Source: Treponema sp. (GTDB taxonomy: Bacteria; Spirochaetota; Spirochaetia; Treponematales; Treponemataceae). From it: a DNA stretch of 64,000 bases. The first letter of the stretch is position 1; every line of letters begins with the position of its first letter. A program made the position numbers and the translations under genes. The notes beneath the pieces are model-generated. The model was not told the origin of the DNA. It did not search any database and was given only the letters and a program-made list of their open reading frames with translations. Below, in pieces: positions 19,099 through 35,705 of this stretch. The stretch covers positions 221,753 to 285,752 of the forward strand of contig JAFUDX010000025.1 of assembly GCA_017464425.1 (NCBI GenBank), in the 5' to 3' direction.

Positions 19099-19200
19099 GT
19101 GAGCAGTGAGCAATGTGCAGTGAGCAATTTTAGATTGCTTCGCCTATGGCTCGCAATGACCAAATGATGTTACCTTCTCACTGCTAACTGCTCACTCCTA
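19099..19200. repeat. GAGCAGTGAGCA inverted repeat enclosing a GTCATTGCGAG-type palindrome
   Basis: Left arm GAGCAGTGAGCAATGTGCAG (19101-19120) and right arm TCACTGCTAACTGCTCACTCC (about 19181-19199) are inverted copies of one word. Between them lies GATTGCTTCGCCTATGGCTC followed by GCAATGAC, which in reverse reads GTCATTGCGAG...GAAGCAATC, a palindrome type I recall from many bacterial genomes. The element fills the whole gap between the ATP-grasp stop and the amidase start. Confidence 0.65.
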
Positions 19201-20910
19201 ACTTTGATTATCGGCAACATACAACGCGCCCTGAATTCCTCCTCGGAGAACGGCTTGCCAAAAACGCTTTCCGTCGAGTTCGGCGTGGGTCGGGCAAAGT
19301 GCGTCGAATTGTTCGAGCGTTTTCCGCAACGTGCGGTGATTCCAGTCCTTCAGAGAATCGGCGAGCGGTATCAAAGTTTCGGGAAGATAGTCGATTGTCT
19401 TGGCGTTTTCGGGGATTTTAGTGCCCTCGCCCACCGTAAGCGAATTTGCGTTCTTTGGCGCGAAAGTGAACGCCGAGGGCGGGAATCCTTCTTCATCGAT
19501 TTCGCACGAGCCAGAAAGGAATTTTTCGGTTTCTGCGTTGTTCGGCTCTAGGCGGAGCGTGATTGAGGAAACGGCTTCTTCGGCGGATTTATATGCCTGC
19601 TCGTGATTTATGCCGACTGCGATGATGTTCCCGCATTTTTCGACATTGTTCCGAGGGAATTCAACTTTGTCGCCCTCTTTTGCTCGGGGAAGCACATCGC
19701 GCATGCCGTAGATTTGCTTGACTTCATCAAGACCGTAGATTTTTGCGACTGTTCCGGGGATTGAAAGCCATGCCCGTTCTGCGCTCACCAGCGTGTTCGT
19801 AATTTCATACAACTCGAAGGGCTGTGTCTTTCCTTTGACGCTCTCATGCGGCTGCCACGGAAGCGAGACACGGTTTGAAAGCAGGTAATCGGGTTCTTTT
19901 CCCACGGCGATTTTGAGGGCTTCTTCAGTGAGGTTCATGCCGCTCGCATACGGAAAAGTCCAGCCCGACATGTAGCCGCCTGAAAGACGAGCCGCGATTT
20001 CTCCAATCATCGGACCGTTTTTTGTGTATTTGATGTCAGCCTTTGCCACTCCGCAGGTCAAGCCCAACGCTTTGATTCCGAGCGCGAATGTGGCGATGAG
20101 TTCATTTTTGATTTTTGGCTCACACTTTGAAGGGAGTGAGTGCCCCATCTCGATGAAATACGGCGGATAAAAGATGTGTCTGTCGGCAAAGCCCGTAATC
20201 GTGAGCGTGCCGTTATAGACGACTGAATCGATTGAAAACTCCGCGCCTTCCATGTAGTCCTCGAAGATTGCGCGGTGCGTGCGGGAATTTTCGATTGCGT
20301 GCGTAACGGCGGGGGCAAGTTCGCCTTCGGTGCGGATTAAGCGGCAACCGCGCCCGCCCATGTTGTCGCAGGGTTTTACGACTTTAGGGTAATCCACAGA
20401 TTTGCACAGATTTGCACAGATTTTGGAAGATTCGTCATTCTGAGTTCGACCGCTTTCGTTGTTGCGGTCGCTTTGTCTCAGAATCTCGTTTTTTTTAGAT
20501 TCCGAACTAAATTCGGAATGACAAGATTCGTCTAGTTCTTGGAATTTGGGGGATGGCACTCCGGCTTTTTCAAAACAGGCGCGCATTCGCACTTTGTCGC
20601 TTGCGTTCAATGCGGCTTCAAAACTGTGTGCGGGAAGACCGAGATTCTCGGCGACGAATGAAACGCTCGCGGAAAAATCGGTGCCGGCGGTGAAAACGCC
20701 TTTTAAGTCGCCTTTTTTGTTCAATTTTTTTGCGAGTTCTAAGAGACTTTCTCGGTCTTTTAAGTCAACGGGGTAAAATTCATCGGCCATGGGCACGGCG
20801 ACGGCATTTTTGTTCGCGTCTACGACGATTGCTTTAAAGCCGAGATGCTTTGCGGCGAGAATGGCGGGCTTTTGCATGAGACCCGCGCCCAAAATCAAGA
20901 TTTTATTCAT
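19198..20910 (-). CDS. ATP-grasp family ligase-like protein with an in-frame repeat insertion
   Basis: About 570 residues. A Rossmann-like N-terminal domain (KILILGAGLMQKPAILAAKHLGFK) precedes an ATP-grasp core with YPKVVKPCDNMGGRGC (ATP-binding Lys and glycine loop) and IGEIAARLSGGYMSG (metal-binding end). Members join an acid to an amine using ATP; the substrate here is unknown. A segment of about 45 residues (roughly 128-172 from ATG 20910; Cys-His-Ser-Glu-Phe onward) is not family sequence: it is translated repeat DNA lying between the N-terminal and ATP-grasp parts. The ATG at 20910 is preferred over TTG 20922. The C-terminal 150 residues are unassigned. Confidence 0.8.
   Translation of the reverse strand: MNKILILGAGLMQKPAILAAKHLGFKAIVVDANKNAVAVPMADEFYPVDLKDRESLLELAKKLNKKGDLKGVFTAGTDFSASVSFVAENLGLPAHSFEAALNASDKVRMRACFEKAGVPSPKFQELDESCHSEFSSESKKNEILRQSDRNNESGRTQNDESSKICANLCKSVDYPKVVKPCDNMGGRGCRLIRTEGELAPAVTHAIENSRTHRAIFEDYMEGAEFSIDSVVYNGTLTITGFADRHIFYPPYFIEMGHSLPSKCEPKIKNELIATFALGIKALGLTCGVAKADIKYTKNGPMIGEIAARLSGGYMSGWTFPYASGMNLTEEALKIAVGKEPDYLLSNRVSLPWQPHESVKGKTQPFELYEITNTLVSAERAWLSIPGTVAKIYGLDEVKQIYGMRDVLPRAKEGDKVEFPRNNVEKCGNIIAVGINHEQAYKSAEEAVSSITLRLEPNNAETEKFLSGSCEIDEEGFPPSAFTFAPKNANSLTVGEGTKIPENAKTIDYLPETLIPLADSLKDWNHRTLRKTLEQFDALCPTHAELDGKRFWQAVLRGGIQGALYVADNQS
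20391..20424. repeat. CACAGAT word repeat inside the ATP-grasp gene
   Basis: Three near-tandem copies of TTTGCACAGA/ATCCACAGA lie directly beside the palindromic element in the same reading frame, encoding Lys-Ile-Cys-Ala-Asn-Leu-Cys-Lys. The same words form the arms of the repeat at 35575-35705. Confidence 0.65.
20427..20532. mobile_element. MITE-like palindromic element with 10-bp flanking direct repeat, in-frame in a gene
   Basis: AAGATTCGTC occurs at 20427-20436 and again at 20523-20532. Between them the element begins GTCATTCTGA and ends TCGGAATGAC, giving terminal inverted repeats, and contains two further hairpins: ATTCTGAG...CTCAGAAT around GACCGC/GCGGTC, and ATTCCGAA-CTAAA-TTCGGAAT. 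The period of the direct repeat is 96 bp, exactly 32 codons, and all three reading-frame constraints are met so the gene stays open. No transposase is present; mobility would depend on one elsewhere. Confidence 0.7.
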
Positions 20911-20980
20911 GTGTATTTCCAAATTTTTCTTTAGTGTAGTATATTTTTAGCACAAAATAAAGTGTCGATTCTATCATTTT

Positions 20981-22261
20981 TTACACATCGGACATGCGCA
21001 AAAAAAGAGGCAAGAATTTTTCAAGCACGGCTTTTCCTTCGTTGCTTTCAGCGGAAAAACCTGTTTTTAATAGAAGAAGCTGCGTAAAAATCTCCTTATC
21101 ATCAAGATTTTTTATTTCAGTACTGTCAAACTGCGCATATTCAGAACTGATAGAAAAATAATGCTCTGCATCCATGACCTTCCAGCTCACGACGCTCATA
21201 TTTTTGGGAAGCGAGCGAATGGTATCTGACAAATACTCTTGGGCATTCACGCCAATTTCCCGTTTATAGCACAATTCAATATACAGCGGAGATTTTTCAT
21301 CTAAGGTTTCGAGCTGTTCTTTTATCTGCGAGAGCGTGCCTGAAATCCGTTTGTAGCGGAATGTTTTTGGAGTCTCACATGTTTCGACTTCAATTGCGAA
21401 TTTTTTTCCTTTTTGGCGTTCGCCCGTTTTTACGACATGAACAAAATGAGGACGCTCTGCTTCGTCAAAGCCCATCACAAACGGCGAGCCTGAATAGCAG
21501 ACGCGGGGATTTTTTGCAACGGTCGTAGAATAATGAACATGACCGAGCGCGACATAATCAACATCAGGAAAAACAGAAGGCGGAACATTTCCGAGCGTGC
21601 CGAGCACATCAAGCACTTTCATGCCGTCATCGCTTTTTTCGTTGGATTTTTTTTGAGAAAGACGACCCTCTAAATCGGCGGCATACAAGTGACCAGTCGC
21701 AATCACGGGAAGAGGGCGTCCAGCACGCAGTTTTTCGGCTTCGGAAAAGACCAGCGCGTACAGTTTTTTGTAGGCCAGTGCATACAAATCACAATCGCTG
21801 GCAGTTTCAGACGAATCAGCAATAAGATTTCGCAGTTCAACTTCCCGCACAAAGGGAACAGCCATGCAAATTCCACAGACTGCGCCAGAAGCATCCGTCA
21901 GTTCAAAACACAAGTCTGCATACGAAGTATTGTTTATGGAGCCAACGACATGAATATGCAGGACATCGAGCAACTCTTTTGCACTGTCAAGCATGGCGGC
22001 AGAATCATGATTACCGGCAATCACAATCACATTCTTGCAACACGAATCAACCAGAGATGCCAAAAATGAATAATACAATTTTCTTGCTTCAATGCTCGGA
22101 TTCGTTGTATCAAAAACATCGCCTGCAATCACAAGGGCTTCGGCATTTTTTTTGACGATACAGTCTTTTAAAAAGCGCAAAAACGCCCGTGCCTCTTCGC
22201 CCCTGTCGATTTCATGCATTTGATTTCCCAAATGCCAGTCAGCGGTATGTATGAAGGTCAT
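20981..22261 (-). CDS. sbcD: Nuclease SbcCD subunit D
   Basis: A 426-residue Mre11-like metallophosphoesterase, the nuclease half of SbcCD which cuts hairpins and blocked DNA ends. All motifs are visible in order: DWHLGN, GDVFDTTNPS, GNHDSAAM, TGHLYAAD and ALGHVHYS. The C-terminal capping region is present. It starts 3 bases after the NHL/VWA gene stop and is followed by an unrelated ATP-grasp gene, so sbcC, normally the next gene, must lie elsewhere or be missing. An SbcCD complex specialised for long palindromes is relevant in a region so rich in them. Confidence 0.93.
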   Translation of the reverse strand: MTFIHTADWHLGNQMHEIDRGEEARAFLRFLKDCIVKKNAEALVIAGDVFDTTNPSIEARKLYYSFLASLVDSCCKNVIVIAGNHDSAAMLDSAKELLDVLHIHVVGSINNTSYADLCFELTDASGAVCGICMAVPFVREVELRNLIADSSETASDCDLYALAYKKLYALVFSEAEKLRAGRPLPVIATGHLYAADLEGRLSQKKSNEKSDDGMKVLDVLGTLGNVPPSVFPDVDYVALGHVHYSTTVAKNPRVCYSGSPFVMGFDEAERPHFVHVVKTGERQKGKKFAIEVETCETPKTFRYKRISGTLSQIKEQLETLDEKSPLYIELCYKREIGVNAQEYLSDTIRSLPKNMSVVSWKVMDAEHYFSISSEYAQFDSTEIKNLDDKEIFTQLLLLKTGFSAESNEGKAVLEKFLPLFLRMSDV

Positions 22262-35574: not shown

Positions 35575-35705
35575 TTATCCACAGATTAACACAGATGTGC
35601 ACAGATTACATGTTTATCCAAGTGAAAAACTTTCAGAAAATTGTGAAAGATTTTCGAATAACATAAATTCATAATCTGTGATAATCTTTCTAATCTGTGG
35701 ATTAT
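35575..35705. repeat. CACAGAT/ATCTGTG inverted repeat between purC and pcnB
   Basis: Left arm TATCCACAGATTAACACAGA followed by TGTGCACAGATTA; right arm ATAATCTGTGATAATC followed by TTTCTAATCTGTGGAT. The arms enclose about 50 bases holding a smaller hairpin GAAAAACTTTC/GAAAGATTTTC. The same word occurs inside the ATP-grasp gene at 20391-20424. Confidence 0.75.

Follow-up and report, generated by a model that had tools for sequence, protein, structure and literature searches.

How a palindromic repeat can come to lie within the reading frame of an enzyme gene, and what it adds to the protein, is the question raised by an ATP-grasp ligase gene of a Treponema species. The gene lies in a stretch of 64,000 nucleotides of contig JAFUDX010000025.1 (assembly GCA_017464425.1), which is referred to as the window. 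The original prediction, made from the letters of the window, described a MITE-like element inserted in frame into this gene; the features it listed, a 10-bp direct repeat, terminal inverted repeats, two hairpins and a period of 96 bp, are all present in the sequence. The reading we prefer, to which we assign a probability of roughly 85%, is that the insert is a head-to-head pair of REP-like units (REP-A), likely inserted non-autonomous mobile DNA, which would have been kept because it is read as a hydrophilic, predicted disordered loop of 32 residues. In the following, genomes are labelled G, contigs C and loci L.

Architecture of the insert

The REP element proper (20434-20522) consists of two palindromic units, of 53 and 26 bp, arranged head to head (Table 1). 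The direct repeat AAGATTCGTC is exact in its two copies, and its period of 96 bp corresponds to 32 codons. The terminal inverted arms (20434-20446/20510-20522) comprise 13 nt and are 85% complementary, and each of the two inner hairpins (20437-20444/20477-20484 and 20499-20506/20512-20519) has arms of 8 bp that match perfectly. Folded as single-stranded DNA the insert reaches -20.2 kcal/mol (z -4.1), and none of 200 shuffled sequences was equally low. The segment is known from a 50-contig assembly, in which the best further copy of the element is found on contig C3 with 81% identity (E 2e-19, element covered).

Table 1. Positions of the features at the ATP-grasp locus (window numbering) and of the REP-A clusters compared with two relatives.
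Feature	Position	Strand	Remarks
REP-B unit	19133..19160	(-)	GTCATTGCGAGCCATAGGCGAAGCAATC; just 3' of the ATP-grasp stop codon
ATP-grasp ligase gene	19198..20910	(-)	stop codon included; ATG start proposed at 20910
R2 repeat	20395..20421	(-)	ATCTGTGCAAATCTGTGCAAATCTGTG; encodes most of the linker's ICANLCKSVD(Y)
Direct repeat, left copy	20427..20436		AAGATTCGTC; its final GTC is at the same time the tag of the element
Long REP-A unit	20434..20486	(+)	53 bp, i.e. the 26-bp type with a 27-bp loop extension; inner stem GACCGC/GCGGTC
Spacer between head-to-head REP-A units	20487..20496		10 bp
Short REP-A unit	20497..20522	(-)	26 bp; GTCATTCCGAATTTAGTTCGGAATCT on the minus strand
Direct repeat, right copy	20523..20532		GACGAATCTT in gene orientation; once in the G020 linker
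Clusters with a unit-free two-sided match in G020 or G089	C9:1944, C9:129799, C17:23495, C22, C31:44033, C36, C41:58289
Remaining queried clusters	C44, C3:16160, C46		C44, single gapped stretch; C3:16160, one-sided; C46, no match

The ligase and its linker

The ORF table begins the gene at a TTG codon at 20922 (ORF 19198..20922 on the minus strand, 574 aa). The product comprises the Pfam domains ATPgrasp_N, ATP-grasp_4 and LAL_C2, and the insert is placed between the N-terminal and the ATP-grasp domain. As predicted, it adds 32 codons without a stop, and the minus-strand ORF is open throughout (ELDES, then CHSEFSSESKKNEILRQSDRNNESGRTQND, then ESSK). The repeat-derived peptide CHSEF...TQND corresponds to residues 129-158, numbered from the residue after the initial Met.

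The ligase has retained the residues at the invariant columns of a 63-row alignment (62 of 120 homologues and the window protein), as follows from its being itself one of the rows. The dN/dS values of the gene (Nei-Gojobori) are 0.12 in the comparison with G020 (552 codons) and 0.05 in that with G089 (536 codons), and they cover the entire time since divergence, of which the period after the insertion is only a part. An AlphaFold2 model has a mean pLDDT of 89.6 and a pTM of 0.88, with weak spots at residues 137-162 (pLDDT below 50) and 484-489. The original prediction had expected about 32-45 added surface residues; the number stands at 32, and the surface position is a prediction of the model, which shows a disordered loop. 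The closest solved relative by sequence is 4dim, whose alignment ends at query residue 119 and restarts at 165, so that 45 residues of the window ligase stand against 12 in the 4dim chain. Extra residues number up to 53 in this linker and exceed 6 at no other internal place of the 63-row alignment. The insert is likely tolerated because it lies in a linker that is predicted to be floppy.

Next to the ATP-grasp gene lies a gene (20981-22261) which by its look we take to encode an SbcD-type nuclease subunit. SbcCD enzymes cleave DNA hairpins; that such a gene neighbours a hairpin-bearing one may be coincidence.

The REP-A family

The REP-A units follow the consensus GTC-ATnCnGAA-loop-TTCnGnAT-CT. 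With the pattern GTCATKCYGAN{4,34}TCRGMATCW, 53 units are found in the genome of 3.22 Mb (28 on the plus and 25 on the minus strand), and with the reversed pattern, which served as control, none; together with the 81% copy on C3, this bears out the expectation that the element is repeated in the genome. The majority of the units are 26 bp long (42), nine are 53 bp and two are 25 bp long. All eight positions of the outer stem are paired in all 42 of the 26-bp units, which have a 5-nt loop, and at three positions both sides of the stem have changed (GC 17/TA 25; TA 30/CG 12; AT 34/GC 7/GT 1), the search pattern having permitted mismatched combinations at two of these three. In the nine 53-bp units two positions of the outer stem show two and one unpaired cells, respectively. 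The 27 extra loop bases of this form contain an inner stem whose pairs, judged by eye, vary in concert (GACCGC/GCGGTC, AAGGGC/GCCCTT, GCGAAC/GTTCGC); in one copy the pairing is disrupted.

The 53 units form 38 clusters. Of these, 23 are single units and 15 are pairs, of which 11 are head-to-head, 4 tail-to-tail and none head-to-tail. GTC is preceded by T in 35, C in 10, A in 5 and G in 3 units. The tail reads CT, where the pattern permitted CW, and the base following it is C in 20, A in 18, T in 9 and G in 6 units.

Within the genus 84 of 146 genomes contain at least one unit, compared with three control matches across all 146. The number reaches 216 in one genome without a Y1 match, and G104, which is 99% complete, has 121 units and likewise no match to Y1_Tnp. 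A literature search of open-licence titles and abstracts returned, among the matches listed, none on the REP-A family.

Absence from homologues and empty sites in relatives

Among the 120 homologues listed of 3733 matched, the insert peptide is found only in P0018, which is the window's own fragment. The absence from the other 119 agrees with the predicted in-frame insertion of a palindrome that separates the N-terminal and ATP-grasp parts, and the segment, which has further copies in the genome, is not conserved in distant relatives.

The nearest genome with the ATP-grasp gene is G020, a close relative that is 97% identical across 182 protein columns. Its linker contains GACGAATCTT once, followed by 18 residues (FLHQATATENKTDTNEKI) that are missing from the window and then by ICANLCKSVDY as in the window; the 18 residues thus stand between ELDES and ICANLCKS. 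Because of them the event in the ATP-grasp linker may have been a replacement of sequence and not a plain addition, or an insertion with duplication which was followed by a loss, as far as the two aligned sequences tell.

For seven of ten clusters queried, both flanks were matched without a unit between them in G020 and/or G089 (Table 1); one of these sites, C9:129799, holds a separate REP-A unit in G089. The flanking DNA is roughly 65-98%, often 75-85%, identical to that of the relatives, and the exact junctions are unreadable at most copies since the flanks are too diverged. At C17:23495 and C41:58289 the net gain relative to G020 equals the element plus about 13-16 bp (hand count). As G020 contains one exact unit compared with 53 here, and seven of the ten queried clusters have unit-free counterparts, the amplification of REP-A in this genome is likely recent. 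A dispersed palindrome-like repeat of the CACGGATTCGATTTTGCTAACGCAAAATC type was also observed in the left flank of the cluster at C36 13303 (query 1296-1348), and it has many matches in G020 and G089.

REP-A units in frame inside other genes

Ten of the 38 clusters lie in frame and at least 40 residues inside an ORF of at least 200 aa. Under the same thresholds this applies to nine of 71 clusters in other genomes, sampled from 30 loci (one each of 30 genomes) and 40 stretches of G104 and G015. Three clusters were set aside before the frames were counted: L184, which is located at the N-terminal end of its ORF, likely upstream of the true start, with one unit read in frame s0 and one in a0; L158, a 31-bp match within a full-length NMT1_3 domain; and L170, which has no Pfam domain. 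Nine clusters in the own genome and seven in others were retained, so that REP-A copies other than the one in the ATP-grasp gene, too, are found in frame within ORFs.

All seven retained clusters of the other genomes and eight of the nine own ones are in ORFs with Pfam domains, L066 being the one that has none. The own host ORFs encode ATP-grasp, CitMHS, HATPase-REC-Hpt, CHASE2-cyclase, Rsm22, PolA, MutS and UppP/BacA proteins. In the HATPase-REC-Hpt protein REP-A is found between REC and Hpt, and in PolA (L185) between the 5'-nuclease and the 3'-exonuclease parts. MutS (L191:721-3024, C41:55780) is longer by about 35 residues, REP-A peptides among them, immediately N-terminal of its ATPase domain, where it has 39 residues compared with 4 in the best solved homologue. 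The CHASE2-cyclase insert is absent from G089, and the PolA and UppP alignments break at the REP-A insert. Two DNA-maintenance genes of the genome, those of MutS and PolA, thereby carry REP-A, and hosts of this kind have been reported for other REP families too. In two MmeI-type restriction-modification genes (L168 of G057 and L179 of G040) REP-A occupies the same linker between methyltransferase and target recognition, which may reflect one shared insertion.

The 19 units of the 16 retained clusters are read in frame s2 (10), a2 (6), a1 (2) and a0 (1), and none is read in the hydrophobic frame s0. The s2 frame gives peptides of the HAELVSAS/HSELVSES type, a2 those of the ILKQVQND type and s0 the hydrophobic VILNLFQN. 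Frame s0 is open in 18 of the 19 units. Under equal tolerance of the three usual frames, none of 16 in s0 would have a probability of (2/3)^16, about 0.0015; with one frame counted per cluster the value is about 0.003, the clusters being perhaps partly dependent, and with L184 included (s0 in 1 of 17 among s0, s2 and a2) it is about 0.01 (all calculated by hand). Outside the thresholds, L062 and L068 show s0-type peptides at the ORF start and end. The prediction that the element is stop-free in at least one frame thus has to be extended, as most units are open in three frames; of these, mainly two occur among the surviving inserts, a pattern suggestive of a filter that acts after insertion.

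One linker, three repeat families

The linker of the ligase was read in 90 genomes (30 loci and 60 more) of the 140 with an ATP-grasp match. Three repeat families were first recognised by eye and scored afterwards, and their scores are cleanly separated from those of the other linkers, although more decayed copies would be missed by this scoring. REP-A scores 23/26 in the window and 21/26 in G050 (next best 17). R2 is a dispersed ATCTGTG repeat of period 10 that adjoins the insert and is unrelated to REP-A; it scores 14/14 in the window, G020, G089, G023 and G100 (next best 11). REP-B (GTCATTGCGAGC...GAAGCAATC) scores 28/28 in G092 and G104 and 25/28 in G111 (next best 15). In total 9 of the 90 linkers contain at least one of the three repeats and 81 none, and 48 of the 90 genomes have a linker of 21 residues. 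Intact copies (window, G092, G104), partly changed ones (G111, G050) and repeat-free linkers coexist. A peptide of the HAELVSKS type is found in the linker of 29 of the 120 listed homologues, and in G050 this peptide corresponds to a REP-A unit in decay, with 21 of 26 bases matching.

On a 90-row tree computed without the linker, in which 36 of 87 inner branches are starred and support is thus uneven, parsimony requires two changes each for REP-A, R2 and REP-B. The REP-B changes may represent one gain and one loss, so that at least five gains of repeats remain for this linker.

R2 and REP-B are also dispersed families. Triple-unit matches of R2 with at most one mismatch number 83 in the own genome, 67 in G020, 42 in G089, 79 in G023 and 5 in G100, compared with a single control match, in G023. 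R2 is also present at 35580-35606 of the window, and several copies form inverted pairs tens of bases apart, for which reason the full R2 element may be a larger palindrome. Exact REP-B copies number 3 in the own genome, 212 in G092, 39 in G104 and 4 in G111, and in G092 and G104 at least one of them is inside the ATP-grasp gene. The REP-B unit just past the stop codon is identical in G020 (G000:C12:240885-240912 in the own genome, G020:C2:9831-9858).

Mobilisation and alternative explanations

A classical MITE would be the derivative of a DDE transposon whose transposase recognises the GTCAT...ATGAC ends and leaves a target duplication of 7-10 bp. The terminal inverted repeats and the exact 10-bp direct repeat at the ATP-grasp copy fit this explanation, and an abutting match of 7 bp arises by chance with 4^-7 per copy, i.e. 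about 0.002 over 38 clusters (hand calculation). As a general feature of REP-A, target duplication had to be rejected: direct repeats that abut the element and exceed 3 bp exist at the ATP-grasp copy alone (1 of 38 clusters), and 27 of the 38 have no abutting direct repeat whatsoever. With the repeat confined to this copy, a target duplication of the transposon type is unproven, and the reading as a classical MITE with such a duplication is not supported. The occurrence of singles and of both pair orientations is moreover the behaviour of REPs, and no parent transposon was seen in a transposase search directed at Y1 (PF01797), all of which makes a MITE improbable. Slightly less probable still is a REP-associated tyrosine transposase of the Y1 (IS200/IS605) type as the mover of the units. 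The hairpins with an unpaired tag would be in line with such an enzyme, and the one Y1 gene of the own genome is followed by a REP-A pair, which lies about 250 bp downstream. However, Y1_Tnp is found in 4 of 18 genomes with at least 30 units and in 36 of 128 others (Fisher p 0.78), the unit-rich G104 has none, and REP-A lies within 800 bp of Y1 at the own locus only, one of 30 Y1 loci from the 40 genomes with a match. The association with such a transposase that the original prediction proposed to look for is not seen across the 146 genomes, and an exact REP-B unit was found at none of the 30 Y1 loci scanned. The own Y1 match itself (L061:1501-2125, C9) is IS200-like by eye and has an AGTAGCC-type tandem tract upstream.

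Two further explanations concern the linker and not the mover. Its repeats could have been selected for because a longer hinge is useful, a possibility we rate as low as that of the MITE: the three families with their five or more gains, the many homologues with a HAELVSKS-type peptide and the maintained reading frame speak for it, but tolerance without benefit explains the same pattern, most of the genomes show none of the repeats, over half of them have a 21-residue linker, and the window insert, whose stems are intact, looks recent. That the segment is native, fast-evolving linker with a chance likeness to a repeat can practically be dismissed. Length and sequence of the linker do vary among relatives; this explanation is nevertheless refuted by the 81%-identical copy elsewhere, by 53 units against none in the control, by the perfect hairpins and by the absence of the segment from relatives.

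Proposed explanation and meaning

We hence return to the inserted REP-like pair as the preferred reading and suggest the following course of events. A trans-acting activity, which would likely recognise the hairpins and the Y-GTC end, may spread the units, and their insertion would be roughly indiscriminate. Selection would then remove copies that shift the frame, fall within a folded core or are read in the hydrophobic VILNLFQN frame, and the survivors would be intergenic copies or those in tolerant linkers, mostly with HSELVSES or ILKQVQND readings. Indiscriminate insertion together with selection on the protein would account for the position in a linker, for the bias among reading frames and for the disorder in the model. 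The same filter, acting in different lineages, could have led to three repeat families in one linker.

A wider reading, which we put forward tentatively and at somewhat less than even odds, is that inter-domain linkers are docking places for whatever small repeats are active in a bacterial genome. On this reading, for which the same reserve holds, the linker would have taken up REP-A and the ATCTGTG repeat at least twice each and REP-B once or more, in different lineages of the genus, and some copies would have been retained and worn down to ordinary linker sequence across a clade. If it is true, the capture of REPs is a standing route to new segments of bacterial proteins, with a reading-frame filter that can be measured. 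The linker of the 90 genomes is a natural data set on the conversion of selfish DNA into protein. The mobiliser of CGTC-type REPs could be sought in this genus, in which a genome without a Y1 match reaches 216 units.

Comparison with known repeat systems

The REPs of the CGTC super-family, as described in the main text of their survey (Di Nocera, De Gregorio and Rocco 2013, PMC3733652), have an unpaired CGTC (or TGTC/CCTC) tag at one end, a stem of 8-9 bp beginning with AT, a loop of 4-5 nt and at the opposite end a tail that is mostly CCA, and their pairs are predominantly head-to-head. According to the same text there are intragenic copies, whose host genes include that of DNA polymerase I and further repair genes, and one species pair has REPs at about the same position of recB; the authors report no dedicated transposase and leave the mobiliser open. 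The Rickettsia elements RPE-4 and RPE-6 are included in the super-family (CGTC-4 and CGTC-1 of R. conorii, respectively), and Treponema is not mentioned in the main text of PMC3733652. REP-A resembles the REPs described there in its Y-GTC tag (C or T in 45 of 53 units), AT-initial 8-bp stem and 5-nt loop, where GTC and the stem-initial AT were built into the search pattern, in its mostly head-to-head pairs (11 compared with 4 tail-to-tail) and in the units within repair genes. As to a transposase, the PF01797 search gave no association of REP-A with Y1_Tnp. REP-A differs from them in its CT tail, where most CGTC units have CCA, and in the 27-bp loop extension with a second stem in 9 of 53 units. 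Tag, stem, loop and pairing of REP-A, compared at the level of sequence with the published description, hence match the CGTC-type super-family, whereas the tail differs.

Hairpin units in head-to-head and tail-to-tail pairs are also known from the GTAG REPs with RAYT (REPtrons), from which REP-A is distinguished by its Y-GTC tag and by the Y1 association that was not found. With MITEs it shares short length, non-autonomy and inverted ends; unlike them it also occurs as lone single units and has no general target duplication.

The Rickettsia palindromic elements (RPE) are small palindromes through which unrelated proteins gain tens of residues in frame. REP-A does the same in 9 of 38 own and 7 of 71 other clusters, and its absence from homologues was seen for the ATP-grasp protein, for MutS (best solved homologue) and for the CHASE2-cyclase (compared with G089); sequence and host are different, and here several families have entered one linker across species. 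REPs in frame are already known, mostly as scattered cases, from the Rickettsia elements and, as far as its main text covers them, from the REP survey of 2013 (PMC3733652). New here are three repeat families in the same linker (9 of 90 genomes), and it is this collection of several families by one linker which is the notable part and makes the locus an unusually clear case.
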